DNA of 64,000 bases from Salipiger thiooxidans (lineage in GTDB: Bacteria > Pseudomonadota > Alphaproteobacteria > Rhodobacterales > Rhodobacteraceae). Positions 10,699 through 62,110 of this stretch are shown here, piece after piece (the stretch's first letter is position 1; each line of letters opens with the position of its first letter). A model generated the notes under the pieces. The model saw only the letters and a list, made by a program, of their open reading frames with translations, made no database searches and was not told the origin of the DNA. The DNA is taken from contig NZ_FNAV01000012.1 in the NCBI RefSeq assembly GCF_900102075.1, forward strand, positions 1 through 64,000. Direction: 5' to 3'. The translations under genes were made by a program, and so were the position numbers.

Positions 10699-11451
10699 AT
10701 GCTCGTGACAGGTATATCGACGACGGACTGGCAACCGGTGCAGAAGGCCGAAGAGAAGGGCCGCTTCGTGCGCCAGGACTCGTCCTTCCGCAACCGGATC
10801 ACCCGGGACGGGGCGCCGGGCCACTCACCGGTGAGGGCGGCTTTCCCGCCGAGGCCGGGCGCTACCGGCATCGCCTGAACCTGCCCCCGGGCGTCGCGCA
10901 CGCTGATGGCCCGCGCCCTGAAGGGGCTCGAGGAGATCATCCCGGCTGCCGTGGTGAACCCCGCACCGGGCGCGCAGGGCTGGGAATTCTGCGGCCACCC
11001 GGGCGCCGGGGAAGATCCGCTGCACTGGGCCGCCTACCTGCACGAGCTCTACACCCGCGCCGACAGGCAGTTCACCGGCCGCGCCACGGTGCCGGTGCTT
11101 TGGGACATGAAGCGCGACGTGATGGTCAACAACGAAAGCGCTGACATCCTGCGCATGTTCGACACCGCCTTCGAGGGGCTGGTGCCCTCGGACCTGCGGC
11201 TCTGCCCCGAGGACCTTGCCGCCGGGATCGACGCGCTCAACCCGCGGATCTCGGCCTGCATGGCGCGCATCCTCGCGCGGCCCGGGGTGCGGGCGACGGT
11301 CAACATGGATCACATCACGCGGGGGTACTACGCCATCAAGGCGCTGCACCCAACGCGGATCCGGCCAATTGGCCCCGCGCATTTGGGGCGCTGTTGCGGG
11401 GGTGACCTTGGGGACCTTGCCGGGGGCGCTTTGTGGAGGGGGCGGGAGTGA
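10699..11451 (+). pseudogene. Broken glutathionyl-hydroquinone reductase (Xi-class GST, YqjG-like)
   Basis: From ATG 10699 the product reads as the start of a YqjG/ECM4-type enzyme (GRFVRQDSSFRN). The frame is lost near 10820, where GEGGF and EAGRY motifs continue in another frame, and an in-frame TGA stands at 10876-10878. The original frame then resumes with a changed active-site motif (CPRASRT instead of CPWAHRT), GLEEIIPAAVVNP, DMKRDVMVNNESADILRMF and the usual ending DHITRGYYAIKALHP. About 90-100 residues of the helical domain are missing between ALNPRI and MARILARPGV. A frameshift pair, a stop and a deletion together make a working enzyme very unlikely. Confidence 0.85.
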
Positions 11452-11501
11452 GGGGCCAGCCCCTCACACTCCCCGGAGTTTAGGGGCAAGATGAAGGGCG
11501 G
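11448..11501 (+). repeat. Dispersed hairpin-core repeat, copy 1
   Basis: Hairpin with 8-bp arms GTGAGGGG/CCCCTCAC (11448-11467), then the core CCCCGGAGTTTA, GGGGCAAGATGAAGGGCGG (11471-11501). It lies at the 3' end of the broken reductase and overlaps its stop. The GC-rich rest up to 11746 holds nothing recognisable. Confidence 0.7.
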
Positions 11502-11746
11502 ACGCGGCGCTGGGGCGTCTGGCCGCGTGCTTTTTGATTTCGGGCTGTGGGGCTCGCGGGTGGCGGGGCGTTTTTTGGCTTTGGAGCGTGGCCGGGTGTA
11601 GGGGGCGCACGCGGGCTGGTGTGTCGGCGGGTTGTGGGGCGCCGGGGCCATGTGCCGGGTGCGGGGAGGTGGGGCCGGTTCGGGGTGAAGGTGCTGGCGT
11701 ATTGGTTGAGGGGCAGGGCGCCGGGGGACGTCCTGCCCCTTTTTCG

Positions 11747-22211: not shown

Positions 22212-22286
22212 TGGAGCGGGCGATGAGATTCGAACTCACGACCCTTACCTTGGCAAGGTAATGCTCTACCCCTGAGCTACGCCCGC
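22212..22286 (-). tRNA. tRNA-Gly (GCC), copy A
   Basis: A full 75-base cloverleaf with encoded CCA: acceptor GCGGGCG, D-arm GCTC/GAGC, anticodon loop CTTGCCAAG giving GCC, and T-arm GGTTCGA-like (GAGTTCGAATC). An identical-looking copy lies 112 bases away. Confidence 0.97.
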
Positions 22287-22323: not shown

Positions 22324-22398
22324 TGGAGCGGGCGATGAGATTCGAACTCACGACCCTTACCTTGGCAAGGTAATGCTCTACCCCTGAGCTACGCCCGC
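22324..22398 (-). tRNA. tRNA-Gly (GCC), copy B
   Basis: Same 75-base sequence and GCC anticodon as the copy at 22212-22286. The two are separated by 37 bases and probably share a transcript. Confidence 0.97.
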
Positions 22399-23114: not shown

Positions 23115-23516
23115 TCAGTCCCGGGGTGGCAGCTGCTCGACGGCGCCGCCCTGGGCCACCCAGTCGGTGAAGCCGTCGCGGAGGTGGGCCGCCTCGAAGC
23201 CCATCTCCTGCAGCGCCGCCACCGTCAGCGCCGAGCGCCAGCCGCTGGCGCAATGGAACAGGTAGCGCTTGCCCTCCTGGGCGAAGACCGGCTTGTGATA
23301 GGGGCTGTCGGGATCGACCCAGAACTCGATCATGCCGCGCGGCGCGTGCACCGAGCCGGGAATCACGCCGCTGCGCTGGCGCTCGCGGATGTCGCGGATG
23401 TCGACGATCACCAGATCCGGATCCCCGAGCGCGGCGATCGCCTCCGCGGTTCCGACCTCGGAAATGCGCGCCCGCGCTTCCGCCACAAGCTGCGCCGCCG
23501 TCTTCTTCAGTGCCAT
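23115..23516 (-). CDS. Rhodanese-domain protein
   Basis: 133 residues, one rhodanese domain. The active-site loop is CASGWRS with Cys89 as the persulfide carrier, preceded by IVDIRDIRERQRSG. It would move sulfane sulfur to an acceptor such as cyanide or a thiol; the biological partner is unknown. Strong GGAGGAGGAG upstream. Repeat copy 2 lies just upstream of its start. Confidence 0.88.
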   Translation of the reverse strand: MALKKTAAQLVAEARARISEVGTAEAIAALGDPDLVIVDIRDIRERQRSGVIPGSVHAPRGMIEFWVDPDSPYHKPVFAQEGKRYLFHCASGWRSALTVAALQEMGFEAAHLRDGFTDWVAQGGAVEQLPPRD

Positions 23517-23540
23517 GCTCTCCTCCTCCGGGCGAGGCTT

Positions 23541-23610
23541 CGCCCTTCATCTTGCCGGATAAACTCCGGGGGGATTCCGGACGCATGTCCGGAATGGGGG
23601 CAGAGCCCCC
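23541..23610 (-). repeat. Dispersed hairpin-core repeat, copy 2
   Basis: Read on the minus strand: hairpin A GGGGG-CTCTG-CCCCC (23596-23610), hairpin B with 9-bp arms ATTCCGGAC/GTCCGGAAT around ATGC (23574-23595), then the core GGAGTTTATCCGGCAAGATG (within 23541-23573). It follows the pyruvate carboxylase gene in the same direction. Confidence 0.85.
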
Positions 23611-23782
23611 TGCTTCCGCTCCGCAAGCGAGACCCGCAGGACAGTCCGAAGACCCCACAACGCACGCCCGTCAAAACCGAAACCCCGAAACCCCGCCCGA
23701 TCAGGACCGGTCCCCGACACTCCGGCCCGCGACACTGCAGACGAGCGGGCGGGACCGGCGGCGCCGCCCCGCCCGCAGGCGC

Positions 23783-27226: not shown

Positions 27227-27306
27227 CGCTGGTATTCCTCCTTCAACGGCCTCTCTCCGACCGTGGCGGAGAGTGAACGCGATGCCGCGATGCAGCGCAA
27301 GATGGC

Positions 27307-27344
27307 TTTGCAAAGTTAGCGAATTTAGCCGAACGCTTTGCAGA
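27307..27344. promoter_or_regulatory. Candidate ScfR/PccR operator upstream of pyc
   Basis: TTTGCAAA at 27307-27314 and TTTGCAGA at 27337-27344, starts 30 bases apart, with related words TTAGCGAA and TTAGCCGAA between them. The same half-site pair and spacing occur upstream of the ScfR gene, and with 32 bases upstream of pccB. Confidence 0.6.
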
Positions 27345-27947
27345 ATCGCGGTTCGGAAGGAGGCAGCGCCCCCGCGGAGGGCGCGGGGACGCTGCGGTTT
27401 CACCGGGGCCCGCCGCATCGTCGGGGGAGGAGGCAACGACGCCGCCCGCGGTGCCCGGCGCCAAAGGTTCGCCGGGGATGAAAAAGGTCCGGGGCCGCCC
27501 GCATGGAACGCCGTTGACCGGAGGTCCCGGACCGGGTGTCGTCACCCGACCTGCCGTTGACGGCCTAGCGCGCTCCGTCGGCCGGCGCAGGGCGCGCAGA
27601 CAGGAAAATCTCGTCCTGCAGCCTCGTCCTGAAGGTCGCGATGATCTCAATCATCCACGTGTGATCGCAAACCCGGTCGCACCTTCGGGAGGGGCGTGAG
27701 TGGGCGCACCCGCAGTCGTTTCCTTGCGTGCGGCGGCCGGGGCCGTGACCGACCATGCCGCCGCACTTGAAAAGGTATTTTTCGGGGAGCACGAGGCGCC
27801 TTCCGATAATGATAACAGGGTACCACGGACACACGCCTCGGTTGCGTTAATAATACGTGAACTGAATTTCACCCGCGGCGGTCAATTTTACGAACAAATG
27901 CGGAACGCACCTTTTGTCGCCGCCGCGCATGCGCTAGATTTCCCGGC
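27345..27947. other. Intergenic region between pyc and the helicase gene
   Basis: About 600 bases. A hairpin (GGTCCGGGGCC 27486-27496 with GGTCCCGGACC 27523-27533) is followed on the minus strand by five T (27485-27481) and looks like a minus-strand terminator with no accepted gene before it. An AT-rich segment at 27790-27895 probably holds promoters. A GTG-started frame at 27700-27951 is treated separately. Confidence 0.4.
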
Positions 27948-27951
27948 ATGA
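27700..27951 (+). CDS. Possible small protein overlapping the helicase start
   Basis: An 83-codon frame from GTG 27700 with GGGAGGGG 5 bases upstream, ending in a TGA that overlaps the helicase ATG (ATGA). It contains SDNDNRVPRTH and no membrane span. The family is not recognised, and the AT-rich end looks partly like promoter DNA, so it may be a chance frame. Confidence 0.25.
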   Translation: MGAPAVVSLRAAAGAVTDHAAALEKVFFGEHEAPSDNDNRVPRTHASVALIIRELNFTRGGQFYEQMRNAPFVAAAHALDFPA

Positions 27952-30395: not shown

Positions 30396-30597
30396 GGTGG
30401 GGGGCCGCGGCCGGGGCGCAGGCTGTGGTTTCCGCGGATTGGTGGGGCGTTGGGCTGGTTCGGGCGCTTGGTGCGTCTGCCTGAGCGGTCAGGCGAGGTT
30501 TCCTGATGTTATCGGCCACGGGGACTGGCCGCGCCCGTGTGGTGGCCCTGTGCGGTGGTGAGGGGGGCGCCCTGTTCTCCGATCTCGCGCGGGCGGG

Positions 30598-30648
30598 GGC
30601 GTCGGGACGCCTCCGGCGGGAGTTTATCTGGCAAGATGAAGGGACGGG
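30598..30648 (+). repeat. Dispersed hairpin-core repeat, copy 3
   Basis: Hairpin GGCGTC-GG-GACGCC (30598-30611), a few bases, then the core GGAGTTTATCTGGCAAGATG and AAGGGACGGG (30619-30648). It lies downstream of the helicase gene in the same direction. The rest of the gap (30396-30597) holds nothing recognisable. Confidence 0.8.
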
Positions 30649-30669
30649 ACGTCCCGAGGGATGGGCCGG

Positions 30670-33600
30670 TCAGCCGTTCGGCATCCGCAGCACCACGTTC
30701 CGGCCGTTCTTGTTGAGCTGGAGTTCCGTATCGCCGATGGCCGCGACGCGGCCGCCGTCCAGACGGTCGCCCACCTTCACGTTCTGCAGCCGCCCGTTCG
30801 ACAGCCGCACCAGCGCGCGGCGGCTCGAGGGGGTGCCGAAGACGCCGATCAAGTTGATCTGGCGCAGGTTGATCTGGTTCTTGACCGTGGCGGCGCCCGC
30901 GACGCTGCTGTTCTGCGGGATCCGCGGCGCGGCGGGCTGGGCGCGCACTGTGGCGGCAGAAGCGGTCCGCACCGGCTCGGATTCGGTGCGCTTGACGATG
31001 GTGTCGATGTCGCGCGGCCGGTTCTTCGGCTGGATCGAGCTTGCCACCGCGAGCCGTGTGCCGACCGGCACTTCGGCGACGATCTCGTCTGCCTCGGCTT
31101 CGGGTTCTGCTTCCGGTTCTGGCGGGGTATCGACGGTGGCGGCGACCTGCTGGGCGATGGCCTCTGCCATCGCCGCCTCGGCCTGCTGCTGGGCCGCTTC
31201 GCTGATCGCAGCCGGGCGTTCGATCGGGCGCTTTCCGGCCAGTTCCGCAAACGAGTTGCCGCCCAGCGTGGCGCGCTCGGCCTGTTCGACGAGATCGCCG
31301 GGACGGGGCTGCGGGCGGCTCTGGGCGAGCGGGTTCCCTGGCTCGGCGCTTGCGGTGTCGGTGGACGCGGCGTCACTCGTGGCCGCGCCGGTCTCTTCGC
31401 TGCCGGTCTCTTCGCCGCCGGACGCGGGAGCCTCGGGCCGCGCTGTGGGGGCGATGGGGGCGGCTTCGTCTGCCGGCCCGGCGGGGCTGCGCTGCGGCGG
31501 GATCTGCGGCGGCGGGCCGGTGAAGACCCGGATACCGTCGGGCGAGATCGCGCCCTCGGGGGTGGCACGCACCAGCCCGTTCTCGTCGAGGTCGAAGCGC
31601 ACGTCCGGTCCAGGCGGCAGGCGCACCGGCTCGAGCGCCACGTCGTCGTTCAGGGTGCCCGCGGGCGGCAGCGCCACCGCGTCGTACTGGCCGACCTTGG
31701 GATCGACCGAGGCGATGTAGAGGTCGTCGACGGAATCGGTCTGCGGGTGGTGCGGCGCGGAGGGCGCGCGCTCCCAGATGCCGGTGGCGGCGTAGCGCGC
31801 GGCGGCCTCGTCGGCGCTCGGGCTCTGGCCAGTGGGTTCGGCGGGGAGCGGCTGGGTCGGGACCGGGGCGGCGTCCCCGTCGGGCGGCAGCAGAGCCGCG
31901 ACGTCCATCCCTTCGTCGGCCAGGGTTTCGGCGGCATCGGCGGCGGCTTCCGGCTCGTCGGCGATGGCGACGCCGTCGCCGAGCGCCGCGTCATCGGGCG
32001 CCTCGGAGGTGGCGATCGCCGCGGCGGCGGGCTCGTCGGGACGGAAGAAGCGCGAGATGCCGTCCTCGAGGAAGACCGAGGCCCAGGCGGCGACGGCGGC
32101 GAGGAAGAGCAGCAGCACCACGGTCAGCATCAGCCCGAGGAAGCGCGGCTTGCCGCCGATCTGCTCGTCGCGGCGGGCGCCGAACACCGTCATGCGGCGG
32201 CGTTCCTCGTCCGGGTCGATGGCCGCGGTGCCGGCCGCGGAGGCGGTGACGGGGGGGCCGGGATCCTCGTTGCGCGAGCGGCGCAGGGCGGCGACGCGCA
32301 GGCCGTCACGGGGCTCTGCCGCGGTCTCGGGCGCGGGCTGGGGGACTGGCGGCGGTGCGGGCTGGGGCCGGGGGGCGCTGGCGGCGGCGGCCTTGGCGCC
32401 GTTGCGTGCACGCTTCGGGGCTGCGGGTTTCTTGCGCGGGGCGGGCGTGGGATCGGCGGCGGGCTCCGGCGGCGGCGACGGGCGCAGCTTCGGAGCGGGG
32501 GCACCGGCGGGCGCGGCGGCCTGCGGCACCGGGGCGGCGGGCGCCTCGGGGATGTCGCGGGTGGCGCGCATGGTGCTGAAGCTGGGCGCCGGGTCGGGGC
32601 GCGCACCGGCGGGGTCGGCGACGCGCGGCGCGGCGCCGGTGGCGGCGGCCGAGACGAGCGGTCGGGTGAGGGCCGTCTCGCCCGGCTCGGCAGGGGTGGT
32701 ATCGGCGCGGGCGTTGCCGCCGGGGCCGAAGACGCCCTGTGCGAAGCGCACCCGCTGGTCCGGATCGGGCAGCGGCGCGGGTTCGGCGGCGTCCCCCGGA
32801 AGGGCCGGCTCCGGTGCGTTGTCCCTGGGCGACGACGGTGCGGCATCCTGCTTGTGGGGTGCGGCGGGCGGTGTTGGGGCCGCTGCGGCGCGTTCCGTCG
32901 GGAGGCTCTCGGGGGCCGGGGTGTCGGTCTCCGCGGCGTTTTCCGTGGGCGGGGTTGCGGGGGTGGTCGCGGGTGTTCGGGTGGCCCGTTCCGTCGGCGC
33001 GGTTTCGGAAACCGGGGCGGGACGCTCGGCGCTGGGGTCCGTCGGGACAGTTTCCGGCGCGGGCGTCTCCGCTGCGGCGTCCGGCGTGGGCGCAAGCTTG
33101 GCGGGGGCCGCAGACACCTCGGGGACGGCCTCGGCCTCGGGCCGGGCGGGCGCAACCGGCGCCGCGTCGCGCGGGGCCGTCTGGGCACCGCGGCGCCACG
33201 GCAGCACGGGGGCTGCGGCGACGATGCGCACCGGCTGCGGCAGGCGGTCGGGGGGGACGCCGGTCCAGCCGGGGGCGGCGCCGAAGAAGGGCGCGCCGGT
33301 GAAGGCGCCGTCGGGGGCCATCGCGGTGAAGCCCACCGGCACGAAACCGTGGGCGCTCACGAAGCCCGCCGCCTCTTCCAGCGTCTCGCGCGCCACGGCG
33401 GCGGCGAAGAGCCGCTCTCCGTCCGTGGACCAGTCGCAGACCAGCTCGTCCACCGCGTAGGGGGTCGCGCCGTCGAGGGCGGCCTGAACCGCCGCCTCCT
33501 GCTGGGCCGGATCGCCCGGCGCGGCGAGGTCGAGATAGCGGATCTGCTCGTTCGGCAGGATCAGCAGCACCTGCGCCCCTTCGGGCGAGAGCTGTTCTGC

Positions 33601-33741
33601 GGTCGCGCGCAGGGCGGTCAGCTCGGCGTCGAGATCCGCACTGTCGAGCGCCACGTCTCCCGCCGGGCTCCACCCGGTCACTGCCCGTCGCAGCAGGGTG
33701 ATTCCGTCGGACGAAAGGGAAAGCGCGAAATTCGGTACCAT
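30670..33741 (-). CDS. Large membrane-spanning protein with GspC/PilP-like C-terminus
   Basis: 1023 residues. Residues about 1-150 look like a compact cytoplasmic domain similar in pattern to the GspL/PilM actin-like fold (VLLILPNEQIRYLDLAAPG, then a Glu/Ala-rich helix). A very long Pro/Ala/Glu-rich region (about 180-510) leads to one membrane span (about 535-556), a second disordered region, and a C-terminal beta domain (about 945-1023; INLIGVFGTPSSRRALVRLS and VKVGDRLDGGRVAAIGDTEL) resembling the GspC homology region or PilP. It may link cytoplasmic and periplasmic parts of an envelope machine. No pilus or secretion genes lie nearby. The domain matches are inferences. Confidence 0.65.
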   Translation of the reverse strand: MVPNFALSLSSDGITLLRRAVTGWSPAGDVALDSADLDAELTALRATAEQLSPEGAQVLLILPNEQIRYLDLAAPGDPAQQEAAVQAALDGATPYAVDELVCDWSTDGERLFAAAVARETLEEAAGFVSAHGFVPVGFTAMAPDGAFTGAPFFGAAPGWTGVPPDRLPQPVRIVAAAPVLPWRRGAQTAPRDAAPVAPARPEAEAVPEVSAAPAKLAPTPDAAAETPAPETVPTDPSAERPAPVSETAPTERATRTPATTPATPPTENAAETDTPAPESLPTERAAAAPTPPAAPHKQDAAPSSPRDNAPEPALPGDAAEPAPLPDPDQRVRFAQGVFGPGGNARADTTPAEPGETALTRPLVSAAATGAAPRVADPAGARPDPAPSFSTMRATRDIPEAPAAPVPQAAAPAGAPAPKLRPSPPPEPAADPTPAPRKKPAAPKRARNGAKAAAASAPRPQPAPPPVPQPAPETAAEPRDGLRVAALRRSRNEDPGPPVTASAAGTAAIDPDEERRRMTVFGARRDEQIGGKPRFLGLMLTVVLLLFLAAVAAWASVFLEDGISRFFRPDEPAAAAIATSEAPDDAALGDGVAIADEPEAAADAAETLADEGMDVAALLPPDGDAAPVPTQPLPAEPTGQSPSADEAAARYAATGIWERAPSAPHHPQTDSVDDLYIASVDPKVGQYDAVALPPAGTLNDDVALEPVRLPPGPDVRFDLDENGLVRATPEGAISPDGIRVFTGPPPQIPPQRSPAGPADEAAPIAPTARPEAPASGGEETGSEETGAATSDAASTDTASAEPGNPLAQSRPQPRPGDLVEQAERATLGGNSFAELAGKRPIERPAAISEAAQQQAEAAMAEAIAQQVAATVDTPPEPEAEPEAEADEIVAEVPVGTRLAVASSIQPKNRPRDIDTIVKRTESEPVRTASAATVRAQPAAPRIPQNSSVAGAATVKNQINLRQINLIGVFGTPSSRRALVRLSNGRLQNVKVGDRLDGGRVAAIGDTELQLNKNGRNVVLRMPNG

Positions 33742-38068: not shown

Positions 38069-39070
38069 TCAGCGCATCCAGAGGCCCTCGCGCTTGAGCC
38101 GGTTGCGGATCGCCTGTTCGCGCCGGGGCAGATCGTCGCGATCGAAGAGCGCCCGCGCCTTCGCGCCGCGCCCCTGGTAGACCATGCGCCGGATCGGCAC
38201 GTACTGCTTCAGCACCTGCCGGACCCGGTGCGGCGCGGCAATCTCCTCGAGCCGCTGCACCACCGCGTCGGCCTCGCGGGCGTAGAGCAGCGGCAGCGCG
38301 CGGTAGTGGCAGGTGACCGCGCCATCAAGCAGCCCCTCGGGCAGCGCGTCGCGCCCGCCGCCGAACGCGTGGATCACCAGCGGCAGCGCGATCTGGTCGA
38401 GCCACGGGTCGAGGCTCTGGCACACCAGCTCCGGCGGTGGGTCGTCGCGGATCTCGAGCGCGTAGTCGAGGAAGCGCTGCCCGAAGCGGCGGGGGCATTC
38501 GTAGAAGAAGAAGCCCGCGTTCAAGTAGAGGTAGCGGCGCCAGTGCTCCTCGGGCCAGCCGGTGTCGAGGGAGCTTTCGAAATCGAGCCCGAAGCGGTCG
38601 TAGAGCGATGTCCAGATCGCGGTGTAGCCGGGGCCGTAAAGCTCGATCTGTGGCCACGTGCCCTCGCGGCGGAGCGAGGCGCCGGGCCGGGCGAAATCGA
38701 AGGGCACGGAGGCGAGATCGCCAAGCACCAGCGTGTCGGTGTCGAAGAACACGAAGGGCTCGCCCTCGGGCAGGGCGGCAAGCGCCTCGATCTTGTTGCC
38801 GTAGGGATAGGCCTGCCCGAAGTGGCGGCTCTCGAAGGGCAGGAAGATGGCGCCGTGCGCGCTGAGAAGCTCCCGCACCTCGGCATCGAGGATGCGCGGG
38901 TTCTGCGACCAGAGCGGACCGGGCTGCGGCTCGGCCACGAAGAGCCGCACCTGATCGCGCGGGGTCGCGTGGGCGAGCGACAGGGCGAAGAGCAGCGCCT
39001 CGTACTGCAGCCGCCCCGCCTGTCCGACGATCATCACGTTGAGCGGTTGCGCCCGCGCCGGTGCTGTCAT
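38069..39070 (-). CDS. Glycosyltransferase-like protein (GT-A fold)
   Basis: 333 residues. A nucleotide-binding start (LNVMIVGQAGRLQYEALLFA) and the metal-binding DxD motif in FVFFDTDTLVLGD near residue 110 point to a GT-A/GT8-like transferase; LNAGFFFYECPRRF resembles the acceptor-side motif of such enzymes. Donor and acceptor sugars are unknown. It stands alone between the propeller and hydrolase genes. Confidence 0.7.
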   Translation of the reverse strand: MTAPARAQPLNVMIVGQAGRLQYEALLFALSLAHATPRDQVRLFVAEPQPGPLWSQNPRILDAEVRELLSAHGAIFLPFESRHFGQAYPYGNKIEALAALPEGEPFVFFDTDTLVLGDLASVPFDFARPGASLRREGTWPQIELYGPGYTAIWTSLYDRFGLDFESSLDTGWPEEHWRRYLYLNAGFFFYECPRRFGQRFLDYALEIRDDPPPELVCQSLDPWLDQIALPLVIHAFGGGRDALPEGLLDGAVTCHYRALPLLYAREADAVVQRLEEIAAPHRVRQVLKQYVPIRRMVYQGRGAKARALFDRDDLPRREQAIRNRLKREGLWMR

Positions 39071-39142
39071 GCCCCCCGCCTGCCTCGTGTCCTGCGGTGT
39101 TTTCCCGCCATCATAGGCCGCCGAAGGGCGCGGGCCGCGCCG

Positions 39143-39835
39143 TCAGATCTCGATGGCTTCGAGAACCTCGGGCTCGATCACCTTCACCCCGGGCAGGCCC
39201 GCGGCCAGCGCCTCGGCGGATTGCTCGAGCGCGTCGAAGGTGCGGTAGTGCATGGGGATCACGGTCTTGAAGTCGAAGTAGGTCTTCGCCGCCCAGGCCG
39301 CCGCCTTCATGTCCATGGTGTAATAGCCGCCCGCCGAGAGCATGCCGATGTCCGGCTTGTGATAGGCGCCGATCCACGCCATGTCGGCCATGATCGTGGT
39401 GTCGCCCGAGAAATAGATCGTGTGGCCCTCGCCCTCGATGATGAAGCCGGTCTCCATGCCGGTGTAGACGGGCTTGTCGTCCACGGTCATCGACGAGCTG
39501 TGCGAGGCGGGCACCATGGTGATCTTGACCTCGCCGAAGGCGATGGTGCCGCCCTTGTTGAAGGCGTGGCCAGCGTTGGCGCCCTGGCTTTCCAGCAGGC
39601 CGATCAGTTCGAAGATGCCGGAGACCGGCAGGCCGGTGTCCTTCGAGATCTGCACCACGTCGGAGCTGTGGTCGAAGTGGCCGTGGGTCATGAGGATCTG
39701 CGTCGCGCCCTCGAGCGCCTCTGCCTTGCGGTCCTCGGGCATCATGGGGTTGCCGTTGAGCCAGGGGTCGATGAGCAGCACCTGATCCGCGATCTCGAAG
39801 CGGAAGGAGCCGTGGCCGAGCCAGATGATCTTCAT
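39143..39835 (-). CDS. Metal-dependent hydrolase, UPF0173 / MBL-fold
   Basis: 230 residues of the metallo-beta-lactamase fold. The HGHFDHSSD motif carries metal ligands His51, His53, Asp55 and His56; PASHSS, SGDTT and MHYRTFDA supply the others. The family is UlaG/UPF0173-like; the substrate is unknown. ATG 39835 is supported by the family start MKIIWLGHGSF. Confidence 0.88.
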   Translation of the reverse strand: MKIIWLGHGSFRFEIADQVLLIDPWLNGNPMMPEDRKAEALEGATQILMTHGHFDHSSDVVQISKDTGLPVSGIFELIGLLESQGANAGHAFNKGGTIAFGEVKITMVPASHSSSMTVDDKPVYTGMETGFIIEGEGHTIYFSGDTTIMADMAWIGAYHKPDIGMLSAGGYYTMDMKAAAWAAKTYFDFKTVIPMHYRTFDALEQSAEALAAGLPGVKVIEPEVLEAIEI

Positions 39836-39895
39836 GGGGGAATCCTCCGGTTGCGTGTTCCGGCCCGACGGTAGCGCAACTTTGCGGGGGGTAAA

Positions 39896-40006
39896 GGGGG
39901 CGCTGCCCCCATCTGCCTGCGGCAGACTCCCCCGGGATATTTATGGCCACTGGAAGACGGGGCGTTCAGACGGGGCGTGTTTTCCAATGGCCCCAAATAT
40001 CCCCGC
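39896..40006. repeat. Dispersed hairpin-core repeat, variant copy 6, with an inverted partner
   Basis: Plus strand: hairpin A GGGGG-CGCTG-CCCCC (39896-39910), hairpin B TCTGCC-TGC-GGCAGA (39912-39926), then a different core, GGGATATTTATGGCCACTGG (39934-39953) followed by AAGA. At 39980-40006 the same core recurs inverted, giving an imperfect inverted repeat about 75 bases long. It lies between the hydrolase and ampD genes, both on the minus strand. Confidence 0.75.
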
Positions 40007-40054
40007 CGGAGGCAGGCACGAGGCCGCGAACACGCGGACCGCCGGGTCTTTTCG

Positions 40055-40714
40055 TCAGGCCGCCGGCCAGGCGCGGGCAAGCCCCGCCATCAGGGCGCGG
40101 TCGGTCAGGTCGAGCGGGCCGCTGGCGCCGGGCCGGAACCGGTCGCGGAAGGCGGCGAGCAGGGCGTCGTGCTGGTCGGGGGTGAAGCGGTAGCCGAAGC
40201 TTCGGGCGTCGGTGTGGAAATCGCCGGGTGCGCCCGCATCGGCGCGGATCGCGAGGCCGCGCCGCGCGAGCCGTGCCCAGTCGAACCGCGGGCCGGGGTC
40301 GATCTTGCGCCCCGGCGCCATGTCGGAATGGCCGATCACCCGCTCGGGCGGGATCTGCCAGCGCCCGAGGATGTCCGCGAGCAGCGGCTCGAGCGCCGCC
40401 ATCTGGGGCTCGGGGAAGGGCTCCTTGCCGGTGTTGGCAATCTCGATGCCGATGGAGCGCGAATTCACCTCCTCGACGCTGCCCCAGGCCCCGAGGCCCG
40501 CGTGCCAGGCCCGCATGTCCTCGCGGACCAGCTGCCAGCAGGTGCCGTCACGCGCGATGACGTAATGGGCCGAGACTTCGGAGACGGGGTTGCAGAGCCA
40601 GTCGCGCGCCGCCTCGGCGCCGGCCATGGCGGTGTAGTGCAGCACGACCATGTCCGGCGCCGCGCCAAGCCGGCGCGGGCCGAAATTGTCGCTGGGGTGC
40701 CAGAGCGGCGTCAG
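40055..40714 (-). CDS. ampD: N-acetylmuramoyl-L-alanine amidase (AmpD-like), possible CTG start
   Basis: A zinc amidase that cuts the lactyl-amide bond of muropeptides during peptidoglycan recycling. Metal-ligand motifs VVLHYTAM, VIGHSDMAPGRKIDPG and the Tyr/Glu environment (GIEIANTG) are present. The first ATG (40651) would drop the conserved lead-in HPSDNFGPRR. That segment is open back to a CTG at 40714, which overlaps the upstream stop as CTGA; no ATG, GTG or TTG lies between. The start is therefore taken as CTG with translational coupling, giving 219 residues. The ATG start remains possible. Confidence 0.8.
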   Translation of the reverse strand: MTPLWHPSDNFGPRRLGAAPDMVVLHYTAMAGAEAARDWLCNPVSEVSAHYVIARDGTCWQLVREDMRAWHAGLGAWGSVEEVNSRSIGIEIANTGKEPFPEPQMAALEPLLADILGRWQIPPERVIGHSDMAPGRKIDPGPRFDWARLARRGLAIRADAGAPGDFHTDARSFGYRFTPDQHDALLAAFRDRFRPGASGPLDLTDRALMAGLARAWPAA

Positions 40715-41403
40715 CCGCCGCGCGCCGCGCGGAAGGGCGCGGGGTCCCAGGCGCAGGCGAAGCCGTCGCCATCGGGGTCGAGCCCCTTGCGGTCCCGCTG
40801 CGGGCCGCCGCCCGCGAGGAAGGCTTCCTGCGCGAGGTCGGACGAGTTGTACTGCCCGCAGGCGCGCCCGATGCGGTTGCCGTCATAGCGCCCCGAGCGC
40901 TCGTAGAGCGGTGTGCCTACCGGGTTGGTGGTCTGCAGCGCGTAGGCCACGATATTGGGGCTGTTGCTGTCCGGGCGCGGCGGCAGCTGCGTCGGCGTCA
41001 CAACCTGATACTGCGCCCGGTTCTGGGCGATCAGCGCCGCGTCGTCCTGGATGTCGCGCTCGGCCGAGACCGCCTCGAAGCTGTTCTCGTTCGAGATCCC
41101 GGCGGAGTTGGTGACCATCTGCGGCGCGGCATTGGAGGGTGAGGCCTGCAGCGGCGCCACGCCCGAGTTCTGCGCCGCGGCGGTGGCGGCCGCCTGCGTC
41201 TCGAGGCTGTTGCCGTCGAGGGTGCTGGTCTCGACCGCGGTTGGCGGTTGAACGGTCAGCTGGGTGTTCTGAGCCTCCTGCTGCGAGCGGTACTGCTGCT
41301 CGCCGTAGTCCTGGAACCCGACCCCTGCACCGCTGTCGGGCATGTTCGATGCACATCCCGCCAGCGCCAGCGCCGCCACTCCGCAAAGGAAAACCGTTCT
41401 CAT
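40711..41403 (-). CDS. Lipoprotein with excalibur-type C-terminus
   Basis: 230 residues. Signal with lipobox ALAGC (Cys17), then a long Gln/Ala/Thr-rich low-complexity region (about 25-130), then a C-terminal segment with DPDGDGFACAWDP, the calcium-binding-like excalibur motif. It is probably an envelope lipoprotein. It is directly upstream of ampD, overlapping its CTG, which suggests a shared cell-wall role. The function itself is not known. Confidence 0.7.
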   Translation of the reverse strand: MRTVFLCGVAALALAGCASNMPDSGAGVGFQDYGEQQYRSQQEAQNTQLTVQPPTAVETSTLDGNSLETQAAATAAAQNSGVAPLQASPSNAAPQMVTNSAGISNENSFEAVSAERDIQDDAALIAQNRAQYQVVTPTQLPPRPDSNSPNIVAYALQTTNPVGTPLYERSGRYDGNRIGRACGQYNSSDLAQEAFLAGGGPQRDRKGLDPDGDGFACAWDPAPFRAARGG

Positions 41404-41436
41404 GTCGATATCGTCACCCTTCCTGTCCGTGCGTTC

Positions 41437-42924
41437 CTACCACCACTTCGCCGGTTTTTCCACAAAGCCCGCGGCGCGCTCGAGCGCGTAGGCGGTGTTC
41501 AGCAGATCGCCCTCTTCCCAGGGCCGCCCGATCAGCTGCAGCCCCAGCGGCAGGCCCTGCTTGTCCAGCCCCGCCGGAACGCTAACGCCCGGAAGCCCGG
41601 CAAGGTTCACCGTGACGGTGAAAACGTCGTTGAGATACATCTGCACCGGATCCGCGTCCTGCATCTCGCCCAGCCCGAAGGCGGCCGAGGGGGTGGCGGG
41701 GGTGAGGATGGCGTCGACCCCGGCCGCGAAGGCGTCCTCGAAGTCCTTCTTGATCAGGGTGCGGACCTTGCGGGCGCGGTTGTAATAGGCGTCGTAGAAG
41801 CCCGCCGACAGCACGTAGGTGCCGACCATGACCCGGCGCTGGACCTCGGCGCCGAAGCCCTCGGCGCGGGTCTTCTCGTACATGTCGTTGATGCCCTCGC
41901 CCTGCGAGAGCCGGGCGCGGTGGCCGTAGCGCACGCCGTCGTAGCGGGCGAGGTTCGACGAGGCCTCGGCCGGCGCGATCACGTAGTAGGTGGGCAGCGC
42001 GTACCTGGTGTGCGGCAGCGAGATGTCGACGATCCTGGCGCCCGCGTCCGCCAGCATGTCGCGGCCCCGGGCCCAGAGCGCCTCGATCTCGTCGGGCATG
42101 CCGTCCATGTGGTACTCGCGCGGGATGCCGATGGTCTTGCCGCGGATGTCGCCGGTCAGCATGGCCTCGAAATCCGGCACCGCCAGCTCGGCCGAGGTCG
42201 AATCCTTGGGATCGTGACCGCACATCGCCTGCAGCAGGATCGCGGCGTCGCGCACGTCCTTGGTCATCGGGCCGGCCTGGTCGAGCGACGAGGCGAAGGC
42301 CACGATGCCCCAGCGCGAGCAGCGCCCGTAGGTCGGCTTGATGCCGGTGATGCCGGTGAAGGCCGCGGGCTGGCGGATCGAGCCGCCGGTGTCGGTGCCG
42401 GTGGCGGCAAGGCAGAGATCCGCCGCGACCGCCGCCGCCGAGCCGCCGGACGAGCCGCCGGGCGTCAGCGCGGTGTCGTCGTTGCCGCGGCGCCACGGGT
42501 TGACCGCGTTGCCGTAGCACGAGGTCTCGTTCGACGAGCCCATGGCGAACTCGTCCATGTTGAGCTTGCCGAGCATCACTGCGCCCGCGTCGAAGAGCTT
42601 GCCGGTGACGGTGGATTCGTACTCGGGCCGGAAGCCCTCGAGGATGCGCGAGGCGGCCTGCGACGGCACGCCCCTGGTGCAGAAGAGGTCCTTGATGCCC
42701 ATCGGGATGCCGCAGAGCGACGGCGCCTCGCCGCCCTTGATGCGGGCATCGGCGGCCCTCGCCTGCTCCATGGCGATCTCGGGGGTCTTGTGCACGAAGG
42801 CCCCGAGCGCGTCGGCGGCGTCGATGGCGCCGAGGCAGGCTTCGGTCAGCTCGACCGAGGTCATGTCACCGGCGCGCAGCGCGTCGCGCGCCTCGGCTAC
42901 TTTCATCTTGGTCAGATCGGTCAT
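41437..42924 (-). CDS. gatA: Aspartyl/glutamyl-tRNA amidotransferase subunit A
   Basis: 495 residues of the amidase-signature family. The catalytic Lys78 (GIKDLF), cis-Ser158 (GGSSGGS) and Ser182 (TGGSIR) are in place. With GatC and GatB (not in the window) it turns Glu-tRNA(Gln) or Asp-tRNA(Asn) into the amide forms. The ATG overlaps the gatC stop. Confidence 0.95.
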
Positions 42925-43208
42925 TCCACCACCTTCGGCACGGCAAAGAAGCCCTCGCGGGCATCGGGGGCATTGCTCAGGATCTTGTCCTGCTGGTTGC
43001 CGTCGGTCACGCCGTCCTGCCGGCGCTTGAGACGCATCGGGGTGACCGAGACCATCGGCTCGACGCCCTCCACGTCCACTTCGTTCAGCTGCTCGATGAA
43101 ATCGAGGATGTTCGAGAATTCCTGTGCCAGCGCCGGAAGCTGGTCGTCCTCGACCCGGATCCGGGCGAGCTTCGCCACGCGGGCGGCGGTGTCGGTGTCG
43201 ATCGACAT
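42921..43208 (-). CDS. gatC: Aspartyl/glutamyl-tRNA amidotransferase subunit C
   Basis: 95 residues from ATG 43208 (GGGAG upstream). The typical GatC pattern [20 protein letters not shown], then [12 protein letters not shown] and a C-terminal [12 protein letters not shown]. It stabilises GatA. Overlapping stop and start with gatA show an operon. Confidence 0.95.
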
Positions 43209-43386
43209 CGGGCGGCTCCCCTGTCTGAATATGTCCGCAAGAGTTTCGCCCGCTTTACCGCCGCAGCCGCGCAGCCGCAAGCGTGTCGGGCGCGCGCCAC
43301 CGGCCACAAGGCCGTCATCGCGCAGCACGCACCACCCCATCACCGGCAGGATCCTCCGCGGCGCAGGCGACACCACCAGGACCGCC

Positions 43387-43455
43387 CCCGCCCTTCATCT
43401 TGCCAGATAAACTCCGGGGGTGAGGCGCGGCACGCGCCGAGGGGGCAGCGCCCCC
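43387..43455 (-). repeat. Dispersed hairpin-core repeat, copy 4
   Basis: Minus strand: hairpin A GGGGG-CGCTG-CCCCC (43441-43455), hairpin B GGCGCG-TGC-CGCGCC (43424-43438), then the core GGAGTTTATCTGGCAAGATG and AAGGGCGGG (within 43387-43420). It lies 33 bases after the ScfR gene, oriented with it. Confidence 0.85.
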
Positions 43456-43487
43456 TTCCTTTTCCCGAAGGTCTTCCCCCCGAAGCC

Positions 43488-44879
43488 TCACTCCAGCGCG
43501 TAGGGCAGCACCTCGCGCCGCTCGGGGTGGATGGCGAGCCGCTTCTCGAGCGGCGGCACCGAGCGCTGGTGGCAGTCGGTGCGCTCGCAGATCCGGCAGG
43601 AAATGCCGATGGGCTCGAAGGCGCCGTCGCGGTCGAGCCCCAGCCCGTCGGCATAGACCAGCGCGCCCGCGTGGCGCACCTCGCAGCCGAGCGCCATGGC
43701 ATAGCGCCGCACCGGCGCGCCGAAATGACCGCCGCGCTTGGTGACGTCGCGGGCGAGCAGCACGTAGCGCACCCCGTCGGGGGTCTCGGCAAGCTGGCGC
43801 AGGAAGCGGCCCGGGGTCTCGAAGGCGCGGTGCACGTTCCAGAGCGGGCAGGCGCCGCCGAAGCGGGCGAACTGCAGCCGCGTGGCCGAGTGGCGCTTGG
43901 TGATGGTGCCCGCCTGGTCGACGCGGGCGAAGAAGAACGGGATGCCCTTGGCGCCGGGGCGCTGCAGCGTCGAGAGCCGGTGCGCCACCTGCTCGATCGA
44001 GGCCCCGAAGCGCGAGGCCAGCAGCTCGAGATCGTGGCGCGCCTCCTGCGCGGCGGCGAGGAAACGGCCGTAGGGCATCATCGCGGCGCCGGCGAAGTAG
44101 TTGGCAAGTCCCAGCTTGGCGATGGCGCGGGCGGCGTCGGACTGGAACCGCGCAAGGTCCAGCGTCGCCTCGAGCAGGTCGTTCTGCCGCAACAGCGCCA
44201 CCTGCACCAGCAGCTGGAAGCTCTGGGTCTCGGGCGGGGCGAGGCTCGAGAGGGTGAGCACCTTGCGCTCGGGATCGAAGACCCGCAGCGCGCCGGTCTG
44301 GGCGAACTCGACGCGGATGCCGCGCTCGCGCAGCCGCGAAATGACGCCCGTGCGCATTTCGCCGGTCAGCCCGCCGGCGTAGTGCTCGGCAGCGCGGTCG
44401 ACGGCGTCGATGTAGTTGTCGCAGTAGTGGAAGAAGTCGCGCACCTCTTCCCACGGCGAGGGCTGGAGCTGCGCACCCTCGCGCCCCAGCGCCTCGTCGA
44501 GCGAGGCCAGCCGCTCGTGGGTCTGCCGGTAGGCGCGGTGAAGTTCGAGGAAGGCGCGGGCCAGCGCCGGGGCGTTCGACGCGGTGAGCCGCAGGTCGGC
44601 CAGCGGAGGGGCCTCGCCGAACACCGGGTCGGCCAGCGCCTCGCGCATGTCGGTGACCAGGCGTTCGCTGTCGCCCTGTCCAAGCTCCGTGACGTCGAAG
44701 CCGAATTCCTGCGCCAGCGCCAGCACCACCGTGGTCGAGACCGGGCGGTTGTTGTTCTCCATCTGGTTCAGGTAGGGCAGCGAGATCCCCAGTTTCCCGG
44801 CGAAATCCTTCTGCGTCAGGCCGAGGCGGCCGCGCAGGTCGCGCAGCTTGGCGCCAGCATAAAGCTTGCGTGTGGGCAT
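43488..44879 (-). CDS. Short-chain fatty acyl-CoA regulator (ScfR family, PccR-like)
   Basis: 463 residues from ATG 44879 (GGAGGAGG upstream). An N-terminal XRE-type helix-turn-helix (about 10-65; LGLTQKDFAGKLGISLPYLN), a middle IrrE/DUF955-like region and a C-terminal DUF2083-type part with the Cys cluster CRICERTDC (Cys428, 431, 436). This is the layout of RamB/PccR proteins, which bind TTTGCAAA-like sites and sense acyl-CoA. It lies near pccB, and sites of this type occur upstream of it, of pccB and of pyc. By analogy with R. sphaeroides PccR it should control propionyl-CoA use. Confidence 0.88.
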   Translation of the reverse strand: MPTRKLYAGAKLRDLRGRLGLTQKDFAGKLGISLPYLNQMENNNRPVSTTVVLALAQEFGFDVTELGQGDSERLVTDMREALADPVFGEAPPLADLRLTASNAPALARAFLELHRAYRQTHERLASLDEALGREGAQLQPSPWEEVRDFFHYCDNYIDAVDRAAEHYAGGLTGEMRTGVISRLRERGIRVEFAQTGALRVFDPERKVLTLSSLAPPETQSFQLLVQVALLRQNDLLEATLDLARFQSDAARAIAKLGLANYFAGAAMMPYGRFLAAAQEARHDLELLASRFGASIEQVAHRLSTLQRPGAKGIPFFFARVDQAGTITKRHSATRLQFARFGGACPLWNVHRAFETPGRFLRQLAETPDGVRYVLLARDVTKRGGHFGAPVRRYAMALGCEVRHAGALVYADGLGLDRDGAFEPIGISCRICERTDCHQRSVPPLEKRLAIHPERREVLPYALE

Positions 44880-59828: not shown

Positions 59829-60551
59829 TCAGTCGCGCAGCAGCTTCAGCGCCTCGCGCAGGTCGATGGCGCCATCGTAGAGCGCCCGGCCCGAGATCGC
59901 GCCGTTGAGCGAGGTGCCGCAGTCGCGCAGCGCCTTGAGGTCCTTGAGCGACGACACCCCGCCCGAGGCGATGACCGGGATGGTGACCGCGCGCGCGAGC
60001 GCCGCGGTGGCCTCGATGTTGGGGCCCTGCATGGCGCCGTCGCGGTTGATGTCGGTGTAGATGATGGCGGCGACGCCCGCGTCCTCGTAGCTCTTCGCGA
60101 GCTCGATGGCGTCGACGTCGGTGACCTCGGCCCAGCCCTTGGTGGCCACGCGGCCGTCCTTGGCGTCGATGCCCACGGCGATCTTGCCGGGGAACTCGGC
60201 CGCGGCCTCGCGCACGAGGGCGGGGTTCTCGACCGCCACGGTCCCGAGGATCACCCGCGCCAGCCCCTTGTCGAGCCAGCGCTCGATGGTGGCCATGTCG
60301 CGGATGCCGCCGCCGAGCTGGGCGGGGGTGTTGGTGGTCTTGAGGATGGCCTCGACCGCGGCGGCGTTGACCGGCTCGCCGGCGAAGGCGCCGTTGAGAT
60401 CCACGAGATGGAGCCACTCACAGCCGGCGGCCACGAACTCCAGCGCCTGGGCGGCGGGGTCGTCGTTGAACACGGTGGCCTTGTCCATGTCGCCGCGAAG
60501 CAGGCGCACGGCTTTGCCGTCCTTGAGGTCGATCGCAGGGTAGAGGATCAT
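59829..60551 (-). CDS. hisA: Phosphoribosylformimino-AICAR ribotide isomerase
   Basis: 240 residues, a TIM barrel. [15 protein letters not shown] and the later [11 protein letters not shown] carry the two catalytic Asp; phosphate loops QLGGGIRD and ASGGVSS are present. It isomerises ProFAR in histidine synthesis. The usual follower hisF is absent; the next gene downstream is on the other strand. Confidence 0.95.
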
Positions 60552-60689
60552 TGCTGTCTGCTCAGTGCCGTTTTCTTGATCGTTTCATGACGCCGGGTCG
60601 CACATTATCGGACCCGGCGTCAATATTGAACGAAAACCCGGGCGGGTGCCATGCTGCAAGTCGATTTGCTCGACGGGAGGAGAGGAGCG

Positions 60690-61079
60690 ATGAAGAAGGT
60701 GACGGCAATGGCCTGCGGACTGGCGCTGATGGCGGGTACGGCGCTGGCGGATCCGGTGGAAGGGGTCTGGAAAACGCAGGGCGACGACAACGGCCATTAC
60801 GCGCTGGTGAGCATCGCCCCCTGCGGCAGCGAGATCTGCGGCACGCTCGGCAAGGGCTTCGACCGCGCCGGTAGCGAGATCCGCTCGCCCAACATCGGGC
60901 GGCAGATGATCTGGGGCATGAAGCCCAAGGGCGGCGGCAGCTACGGCGGCGGCAAGATCTGGGCCCCGGACCGGGACAAGACCTACAATTCCAGGATGCA
61001 GCTCACGGGCAATTCGCTGAAGGTCGAGGGCTGTGTGCTGGGCATCTGCCGCGGGCAGGTCTGGACGCGGGTGCGCTGA
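60690..61079 (+). CDS. DUF2147 exported protein
   Basis: 129 residues from ATG 60690 (GGAGAGGAG upstream; the ATG at 60651 has no site). A signal peptide (1-20, ALA) is followed by DUF2147: DPVEGVWKTQGDDNGHY, then IAPCGSEICGTL and a C-terminal GCVLGICRGQVW; the Cys pairs may form disulfides. Function unknown. It splits hisA from hisH on the opposite strand. Confidence 0.85.
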   Translation: MKKVTAMACGLALMAGTALADPVEGVWKTQGDDNGHYALVSIAPCGSEICGTLGKGFDRAGSEIRSPNIGRQMIWGMKPKGGGSYGGGKIWAPDRDKTYNSRMQLTGNSLKVEGCVLGICRGQVWTRVR

Positions 61080-61166
61080 GGGGGAGAGCGCGGGGGGAGG
61101 TTTTCTTGCGGCTCTTGGTGCGCCTGGGGTTTTCAGGGCCGCACGTCGTGCAGGTGGCGGGGAGGA

Positions 61167-61231
61167 GGGGGCGCTGCCCCCGTCTCCTGCGGAGACTCCC
61201 CCGGAGTTTATCCGGCAAGATGAAGGGCGGG
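61167..61231 (+). repeat. Dispersed hairpin-core repeat, copy 5
   Basis: Hairpin A GGGGG-CGCTG-CCCCC (61167-61181), hairpin B GTCTCC-TGC-GGAGAC (61182-61196), then the core GGAGTTTATCCGGCAAGATG and AAGGGCGGG (61203-61231). It is the most complete copy and lies downstream of the DUF2147 gene in the same direction. The rest of the 61080-61474 gap holds nothing recognisable. Confidence 0.9.
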
Positions 61232-61474
61232 CGTGGCGCGTTCGGTGAGGTTCGGGCCAGGGTTGACGCGGTGGCGGCGTCGTGGCGCCGCGGCGCGGGT
61301 TTGGGATCGGGCGAGGCCGGGGAGGTGAGGGGCGCTGACAAACGCCATGGGGCGTCAGGTTTCGCCGATCCGATCGCGTCCTGGATCGGCTGAAGACCAC
61401 CCACTCAACGAGATCGTGCCCGGGAGGGTGCCCATGCGCCCCGCCGGTCGAGATCTCGCTTCTACGGTGACCTG

Positions 61475-62110
61475 TCAGGGGTGCCAGGTCAGGAAGTTGG
61501 CGATCATGCGCAGGCCGGTGGCGGCGCTTTTCTCGGGGTGGAACTGCAGGCCCACGACGCTGTCCCTGGCCACGATGGCGGTGACGTCGCCGCCGTAGTC
61601 CACGTGGGCCACGCGCTGCGCCGGGTCGCTGAGGCGCATCTGGTAGGAGTGCACGAAATAGGCGTGATCGCCGGTGGCGATGCCGTCGAGCACCGGGTGC
61701 GGGCGGTCGACCACGAGGTCGTTCCAGCCCATGTGCGGCACCTTCATCGCGGGATCCGAGGGCGCGATGCGCTCGACCTCGCCGTCGATCCAGCCGAGCC
61801 CGTCGGTTTCCGTATACTCGTGGCCCTTGCGGGCAAGGAGCTGCATGCCGACGCAGATGCCGAGGAAAGGCACGCCGCGGCGCTCTACCGCCTCGACCAT
61901 GGCCTGGAAGCAGCCCGAGCGCCACAGCGCGGCGGCGCAGGACGGGAAGGCGCCGTCGCCGGGCAGCACGATGCGGTCGGCGCCGGCCACGGTCTCGGGG
62001 TCGGTGGTCACCACGACCTCGCCGGCACCCGTCTCCTGCGCCATGCGCTGGAACGCCTTCTCGGCCGAGTGCAGGTTGCCGCTTTCGTAGTCGATGATCG
62101 CCGTCAGCAT
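61475..62110 (-). CDS. hisH: Imidazole glycerol phosphate synthase, glutaminase subunit
   Basis: 211 residues from ATG 62110. A class I glutamine amidotransferase with Cys86 (GICVGMQLL), His191 and Glu193 (LQFHPEKS). It supplies ammonia to HisF, which is not in the window, in histidine and purine-linked synthesis. Confidence 0.95.
   Translation of the reverse strand: MLTAIIDYESGNLHSAEKAFQRMAQETGAGEVVVTTDPETVAGADRIVLPGDGAFPSCAAALWRSGCFQAMVEAVERRGVPFLGICVGMQLLARKGHEYTETDGLGWIDGEVERIAPSDPAMKVPHMGWNDLVVDRPHPVLDGIATGDHAYFVHSYQMRLSDPAQRVAHVDYGGDVTAIVARDSVVGLQFHPEKSAATGLRMIANFLTWHP

Follow-up and report, generated by a model that had tools for sequence, protein, structure and literature searches.

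A mosaic palindromic element at gene 3' ends in Salipiger thiooxidans and other Rhodobacteraceae

Copies of the element in the window

Six copies of a short repeated element lie in the window, that is, the whole stretch of 64,000 nucleotides of Salipiger thiooxidans (the host) considered here, all of them at the places, and with the hairpin stems, given in a first-pass annotation of the sequence (Table 1). The core described there as shared is found in most of the copies, but not at 11475, where the core GGAGTTTAGGGGCAAGATGAAG is one base shorter and lacks TCY. The copy at 30598-30648 is also present, but belongs to a second type (B), in which the core is preceded by GCCTCCGGCG and the GGGGG hairpin is absent. 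The supposed variant copy, at 39896-39956, belongs to a complete facing pair, of which it forms the left half, and its partner core is on the minus strand. A generic pattern run on the window gave one match.

The Rfam scan of the window recovered two tRNAs only, the genes at 22215-22286 and 22327-22398 (-), which have an equal score of 69.8 bits and lie 40 nt apart. At 39.9 kb, three microRNA models were matched far below their gathering scores (27.1, 19.5, and 16.2 bits), which was taken as inverted-repeat noise, and there was no match at 61.2 kb. A described Rfam RNA family was rejected, given the lack of any match to the element at the gathering score. An open frame of 994 aa at 30670-33654 (-) had no Pfam match at E<=0.001.

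Table 1. Components of the element in the window, by copy; core words are given in Roman numerals.
Position	Strand	Component
11448..11467	+	hairpin GTGAGGGG-CCAG-CCCCTCAC of a type A copy whose core is the short variant
11475..11496	+	variant core GGAGTTTAGGGGCAAGATGAAG, short by one base
23545..23567	-	core, word I
23574..23595	-	hp2 ATTCCGGAC-ATGC-GTCCGGAAT, then six C
23596..23610	-	hp1 GGGGGCTCTGCCCCC
30594..30618	+	type B 5' module, predicted hairpin CGGGGGCGT-CGGG-ACGCCTCCG overlapping GCCTCCGGCG
30619..30641	+	core, word I, after type B module
39896..39910	+	hp1 GGGGGCGCTGCCCCC of complete pair
39912..39926	+	hp2 TCTGCC-TGC-GGCAGA of complete pair
39934..39956	+	core A of complete pair, word III; among the source sequences of model R1
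39957..39980	+	central segment separating the facing cores
39981..40003	-	core B, word III, opposed to core A
40004..40013	-	type B module GCCTCCGGCG of complete pair
43393..43415	-	core, word I; flanking genes are gatC and an ScfRs-type regulator gene
43421..43440	-	hp2 TC-GGCGCG-TGC-CGCGCC-TCA
43441..43455	-	hp1 GGGGGCGCTGCCCCC
61167..61181	+	hp1 GGGGGCGCTGCCCCC
61182..61197	+	hp2 GTCTCC-TGC-GGAGAC plus one T
61203..61225	+	core, word I

Abundance and architecture of the element

The core GGAGTTTATCYGGCAAGATGAAG has 125 matches in the host genome (5.87 Mb, 68 contigs) when up to 3 mismatches are allowed, and the 11 bases of its end alone (GGCAAGATGAA) have 154; the reversed control gave none in either case. 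Such numbers go far beyond what chance would give, and the earlier view of a dispersed family is borne out.

Two kinds of 5' module precede the core in the host. The type A module is formed by GGGGGC(G/T)CTGCCCCC, followed by a variable hairpin (hp2) and a run of C, while the type B module is formed by GCCTCCGGCG. The full form consists of two cores in facing orientation, with an A module outside one of them and the B module GCCTCCGGCG outside the other, and the full element is thus read from the sequence as [hp1-hp2-Cn]-core-centre-core'-[CGCCGGAGGC]. Among the relatives, 41 distinct facing pairs were recovered, sought at distances of 40-110 bp, and 38 of them join A with B; the host has seven pairs (among 90 copies), six of them A with B, which amounts to 44 of the 48 pairs overall. 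The spacing of the cores is also narrow, 56-72 bp in 46 of the 48 pairs, 26 of which fall at 64-66 bp, with outliers at 89 and 97 bp.

Halves outnumber complete pairs among the host copies. Tandem arrangements were also observed: locus L048 (1245-1582) holds five tandem cores approximately 79 nt apart behind a single gene, four of type B and the fifth degenerate, and loci L019 and L047 hold two tandem type B cores each.

Covariation and folding

The compensatory changes noted in the hairpin stems hold well beyond the six copies of the window, in the hp2 sets of both the host and its relatives. The hp2 is variable, and the 50 type A host copies with word I carry 34 distinct sequences of it. When the stems were re-optimised (using distinct hp2 of 14-26 nt in the host), the mean best stem was 5.91 bp between a copy's own arms, 3.97 bp between arms swapped between copies, and 3.01 bp in shuffles (n=32), and the corresponding values in the relatives were 5.72, 3.78, and 3.05 bp (n=75). 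In G135, the copy orthologous to the hp2 at 23574..23595 reads GTCCCGGAC-CTTC-GTCCGGGAC.

The core itself had been regarded as a fixed sequence beside the hairpin, a description that does not hold for the full copies, where it forms one arm of a covarying hairpin. In 43 aligned A-B pairs, 82.6% of the cells of the 23-bp core:core' stem are paired, and 129 double changes were counted, in comparison with 50.1 +- 7.3 when the 3' letters were shuffled (0 of 500 shuffles reached 129) and with 8-26 when the partner was slid. The covariation score is 0.349 versus 0.159. No clear excess was seen in the count of pairs showing a double change (13 vs 11.4; reached by 53 of 500 shuffles) or of further pair types (35 vs 32.1; reached by 50 of 500). 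RNAalifold predicted 16 pairs, five of them with double changes, and also paired the A-side C run with the B-side CGGAGG. The stem statistics and this prediction indicate, therefore, that the "fixed core" makes up one side of a long palindrome whose arms covary, so that the halves that dominate the host look like remnants, and the single halves are probably remnants of the full element.

Folding energies differ among the copies. The complete pair at 39.9 kb folds below its shuffles on the two strands (z -3.9 and -3.8), whereas the half at 61.2 kb does not (z 0.01 and -0.05), and its hp1 and hp2 are absent from the minimum-energy fold of the plus strand. The values for the halves at 30.6 kb and 43.4 kb are -0.9 and -2.5, respectively.

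Placement relative to genes and the question of termination

The position of the element relative to genes was assessed in 83 host copies, matched with up to 4 mismatches in the window and in 70 loci (281 kb counting overlaps), the loci lying around core matches with up to 2 mismatches, from 100 listed of 125; the set does not include the pair at 39.9 kb or the 11.5-kb copy with the short core, and the gene calls are those of a home-made codon-usage caller rather than an annotation. None of the 83 copies lies in a called gene, 40 are in convergent regions, 24 in tandem regions in the sense direction and 19 in the antisense direction, and none is in a divergent region. As 8 of the 35 junctions of the window (>=60 nt) are divergent, the total lack of divergent copies is improbable by chance (p 6e-10; 1e-7 on distinct loci), and the copies are enriched in convergent regions (40/83 vs 6/35 window junctions, p 0.002), although the Fisher and binomial values given here take related comparisons as independent.

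In four other genomes (400 kb each), a broader generic detector, which also calls spurious sites, found 58 sites, eight of them in called genes. Six of these eight look spurious, and the other two, both in G132, carry a type A module. Of the remaining 50 sites, 26 are in convergent regions and 5 in divergent ones, one of the latter spurious, and the tandem regions hold 12 in the sense and 7 in the antisense direction. The placement at 3' ends is therefore strong, but not absolute.

The core had been claimed to lie downstream of a gene in that gene's own direction, which is true of five copies of the window, but not of the genome as a whole, where the tandem counts are 24 sense versus 19 antisense (p 0.54; 36:26 when pooled with the four other genomes, p 0.25, not significant). 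The lack of a detectable strand preference in tandem regions means that the claimed orientation fails, so that, of the properties set beforehand for the test, covariation and position were upheld and orientation was not. In five antisense copies (L020, L035, L038, L041, and L024), the core, read backwards, begins 1-9 nt past the stop codon of the facing gene, and in the first four of these, the copies start 1-2 nt past it.

An ordinary family of Rho-independent terminators acting on the gene upstream of the core would fit the placement at 3' ends, the GC-rich hairpins, the T-rich stretch (TTTAT, TATTTTT) that follows them, and the convergent enrichment, and the RNA 3' ends of the sense copies would then cluster at GGAGTTTATC. 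The tandem counts argue against this, and the consensus scan in the sense direction of the core found no terminator-like site inside any of the six window copies, where such a site was defined as a T-rich tract 0-2 nt after the stem on the coding strand of the upstream gene, and the scans covered 39000-44500, 60500-62000, 11300-11800, and 23400-30800. In 43 of the 44 type A copies measured, moreover, 10-13 nt separate the end of the hp2 stem from the T stretch, and the conservation of the core extends well beyond that stretch. With 154 core-end matches in 5.87 Mb, such a family would serve no more than a few percent of the 3' ends of the genome. A terminator role of this kind is quite unlikely, and the one-strand intrinsic terminator proposed for the window copies was abandoned as a general explanation on the grounds of the strand counts and the terminator scans. 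The UpsM-type Rho-independent terminators of the Rhodobacteraceae, as described in passages of PMC5089854, are alike in being terminator hairpins in an untranslated region, but the present element has no detectable strand bias, and its window copies lack a sense-direction hairpin abutting a T run.

Termination in the opposite direction was also considered. When read backwards, the core is pyrimidine-rich in most words (CTTCATCTT, CTTCTTCTG, and similar), and a GC hairpin stands directly before the backward pyrimidine tract in two window copies. Two terminator-like sites touch copies, at 23530-23545 (+) and 30655-30641 (-), both against the direction of the core, and three plus-strand sites lie at least 57 nt beyond the 11.5-kb core. 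Of the 83 host copies, 17 have a hairpin immediately after the core, where it would serve the opposite strand, in comparison with 7.5 in shuffles and 7-13 at control offsets, so that only a minority of the copies could terminate transcription on that strand; a reverse-direction terminator behind every core was rejected on this count.

Conservation by descent and exchange of the core word

The gene junctions of the window were compared with those of seven members of the genus (60 kb in six of them, 2 x 20 kb in the seventh). An element was found in 15 of the 25 orthologous junctions that correspond to an element-bearing junction of the host and in 0 of the 157 that correspond to an empty one (Fisher 1e-15), comparisons which are not independent of one another, and the counts are 15/23 and 0/63 when the gap is at least 60 in both genomes. 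These counts leave out the elements of the relatives with no matched window gene pair (several in G136, G137, and G088). The presence of the element varies between genomes, and at junction 25, for example, the host has a copy and none of five other genomes does.

At the junction of the ScfRs-type regulator and gatC, the element is present in all six matched relatives, and among 19 other genomes of the genus, it was detected before gatC in nine by pattern and in G135 by eye, and none was found in nine. Behind uvrD and behind an amidotransferase gene, the pattern detected it in 5 of 16 and 4 of 19 relatives, respectively.

The element lies at the 3' ends of genes and is often kept there by descent, and the comparisons of junctions also show different core words at the same positions. 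At the pyruvate carboxylase/rhodanese junction, five genomes have the start of the core 50-52 nt upstream of the rhodanese gene and carry three different words; here, the host and G135 share the heart of the hairpin, CCGGAC/GTCCGG, and the outer pairs are compensated, and no element was detected by pattern in G122, G124, or G130. At 11.45 kb, 32 consecutive positions (hairpin, spacer, and CCCCGGAGT) are common to four genomes, and the sequence that follows CCCCGGAGT is TTAGGGGCAAGATGAAG in the host and ATTTTYGACGAAGAGAAG in the other three. The 20-nt hairpin at 11448..11467 plus ACTCCCCGGAGT is identical in G136 and G137, in which the junction is orthologous, and in G088, in which it is unmatched; in G124, a type B copy lies on the opposite strand. 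As this hairpin recurs as a module, homogenisation may be partly responsible for the identity.

The sampled genomes of the genus differ in their commonest words. In 400 kb, G135 has essentially one word, and G137 and G132 have at least three each. On a UvrD tree of 17 genomes, in which 7 of the 14 inner branches are open, the words tend to follow clades, and word I recurs in G000, G120, G129, and G134 (as a variant) and word VI in two clades, although the labels rest on few copies per genome.

Under one explanation, a fast-evolving protein or RNA binds the word sequence-specifically, and a change in this recogniser drives the replacement of the word in place throughout the genome, a process comparable to the uptake-sequence dialects of the Neisseriaceae, though located at 3' ends. 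The exchange of the word beside an unchanged hairpin at the same site is consistent with such a process, as are the differences in the commonest words among the genomes and the inverted pairs reported for uptake sequences, according to passages of PMC3630211. The co-existence of several words in one genome (G137, G132) is contrary evidence, the uptake sequences are common in genes in that same account whereas none of the 83 host copies is, and the search for PF01797 as a recogniser gave none. This explanation is very unlikely. A broader form of dialect switching in place, in which the word would be read either by a putative trans-acting factor or by a copying process, and a recogniser change would lead to the overwriting of the resident elements in both stem arms and over the whole genome, is unlikely, in our judgement.

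Distribution across genomes, plasmids, and phages

The model R1 has matches (E up to 0.001) in 55 of 100 genomes of the family, in a scan restricted to family genomes, including the source genomes, with at most 41 candidates scored per genome and stricter filters. In the window, R1 finds the complete pair, which is one of its own source sequences, and of the halves it has only weak matches, to those at 43.4 kb (E 0.038, strand of the core) and 30.6 kb (E 0.17, opposite strand), while the copies at 11.5, 23.5, and 61.2 kb are missed. Of 120 family genomes, 19 contain the word-I core when up to 3 mismatches are allowed. The type B pattern was found in 22 of 41 relatives, a set with 16 members of other families, none of which has it. 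A scan of 190 genomes across the class gave two carriers, each of them a family member, and none among the 187 genomes outside the family; the family of the scanned genomes, here, was taken as the Rhodobacteraceae from the names of the carriers. Among the matches listed, the exact core is carried by Salipiger, Citreicella, Sulfitobacter, Pseudosulfitobacter, Tateyamaria, and Marivita. It is also found in the contig L198, whose label, Cytophagaceae MAG, would place it outside the expected family, which is likely due to mis-binning.

The copy at 61.2 kb matches 13 plasmid records, 12 of them with no annotated gene under the match, from genera which we take to belong, without exception, to the Rhodobacteraceae in the wide sense. 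A second plasmid query returned 21 records, one of which is a 23-base match in a Rhizobium gene. No phage record matched the 61.2-kb copy, and a phage origin was ruled out on this basis. The R. pomeroyi megaplasmid (200 of 492 kb) has three sites, two of them convincing.

Relationship to known repeat systems

The BIME/REPIN repeats are subject to sequence turnover between species, and the RIME and ABC elements of the rhizobia are alphaproteobacterial intergenic mosaics of palindromic modules.

The present element has much in common with the BIME/REPIN systems. The REP sequences and REPINs are short, extragenic palindromes in inverted pairs, with more than 100 copies per genome and frequent heterodimers, according to passages of PMC3116915, PMC3733652, PMC8266576, and PMC2817692, and the inverted palindromic pairs, extragenic placement, more than 100 copies, and singles that are apparent remnants are shared with the BIME/REPIN class of paired REPs with a RAYT/TnpA-REP transposase, as that class is portrayed in those passages. 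The architecture of the class, with inverted units at a fixed distance in extragenic DNA, is also that of the element, although most host copies are single. By contrast, the element lacks the GTAG tag, which occurs up to 60 nt before the core in only 5 of the 83 host copies, at five different distances, and up to 45 nt after it in 2 of the 83, and forms no column in the 43 aligned A-B pairs. The element further differs in its asymmetric outer modules, A and B, its extra hairpins, and the different core words at conserved positions. The Y1 (RAYT) transposase, PF01797, has no match in the host (E<=0.001), and among 20 genomes of the genus, it was found only in G120 (1), G125 (3), and G134 (1). 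Membership of the REP/RAYT system was rejected for the lack of the tag and of the transposase in the host. The suggestion of a REP-like mobile repeat thus stands in part: the mosaic is REP-like, but its mobility is only putative, as many sites are shared by descent and no REP-type transposase gene was found in the host (E<=0.001).

The CGTC-tagged alphaproteobacterial REPs also form short palindromes and frequent heterodimers and have no dedicated transposase, according to passages of PMC3733652, the main text of which makes no mention of Rhodobacter, Ruegeria, Roseobacter, or Paracoccus. Their CGTC, as portrayed there, is an unpaired end tag, whereas in type A copies, CGTC falls where the C run meets the paired GTC of hp2. 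In raw counts, uncontrolled for base composition, 39 of 83 host copies, and 23 of 48 of type A, have a CGTC in the 60 nt that precede the core. The inverted uptake sequences of the Neisseriaceae share genome-specific dialects and inverted pairs able to form stem-loops at gene ends, but are common inside genes too (passages of PMC3630211), and the present element has two extra outer modules and longer stems. A DNA uptake sequence was ruled out by the 0/83 host copies in called genes.

A selfish or neutral repeat of the REP/BIME kind, copied long ago by a transposase that has since been lost and surviving where it does the least harm, with no cellular function, would explain the placement at 3' ends in either orientation and outside called genes. 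The tandem array of L048, the predominance of halves over pairs in the host (7 pairs among 90 copies), the presence of several words in one genome, and the interpretation of REP singlets as REPIN remnants (in passages of PMC3116915) would all be compatible with this origin. The compensatory changes that keep the stems, and the endurance of the sites across the genus, are more difficult to reconcile with it, as is the lack of a Y1 transposase (E<=0.001) in the host and 16 more of the 20 genus genomes, including G088, G132, G135, G136, and G137, which carry copies nonetheless. A purely selfish or neutral repeat is possible, but doubtful.

A possible role at the 3' border of transcripts

The architecture, the covariation of hp2 and of core:core', the placement at 3' ends, and the lack of a detectable strand preference are features read directly from the alignments and counts. 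The explanation preferred here is that of a short, non-coding, mosaic palindromic, BIME/REPIN-like element of the Rhodobacteraceae, which may act as an orientation-indifferent RNA structure at the 3' ends of genes, a reading, with its putative RNA-level function, that we consider evenly balanced between right and wrong. The strand counts and scans that contradict a one-strand terminator, together with the backward pyrimidine tracts and the 17 of 83 copies with a hairpin behind the core, are the grounds for favouring a 3' border that would be indifferent to orientation.

Under this border reading, transcripts from either side would carry GC-rich hairpins behind the stop codon, and, as the hairpins are palindromic, either orientation would serve. 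The hairpins would mark the 3' border of the mRNA by hindering 3'-to-5' exonucleases, while the intact pairs might also cause weak bidirectional termination at a pyrimidine-rich tract (such as CTTCATCTT) behind the centre. The words would change when one version is copied over the resident copies.

A number of observations run counter to a border function. Most host copies are halves, and the folds of halves are near those of shuffles (z 0.01, -0.05, and -0.9; -2.5 at 43.4 kb). Four antisense copies start 1-2 nt past the stop codon, which a border would not need, and there are divergent and in-gene exceptions in four other genomes. Persistence by descent can, in addition, be neutral.

Searches of a library of open-licence PubMed Central papers found no description of the element, and the five papers that match its exact strings are unrelated, judging by the title and the start of the abstract. 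If the preferred explanation is true, a large bacterial family shares a class of palindromic 3'-end elements that is unmarked by the Rfam models in the window, and the element outlasts speciation at given genes, where it could serve as a landmark of 3' ends. The exchange of the core word in both arms of the stem together would represent, if confirmed, a natural experiment on the homogenisation of repeats in genomes that have yielded no REP transposase.

Coupled lengths of the C runs

The runs of C that flank hp2, one at the end of hp1 and the other before the core, are coupled in length across genomes, as in the window at 43416-43420 and 43441-43445. The host has 39 copies with lengths of (5,5), 8 with (4,4), and 8 others (n=55), and the relatives have 82 with (5,5), 30 with (4,4), 17 with (6,6), and 25 others (n=154 parsed of 175 type A copies). 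This coupling could reflect either a single G run that pairs with both C runs or template switching.
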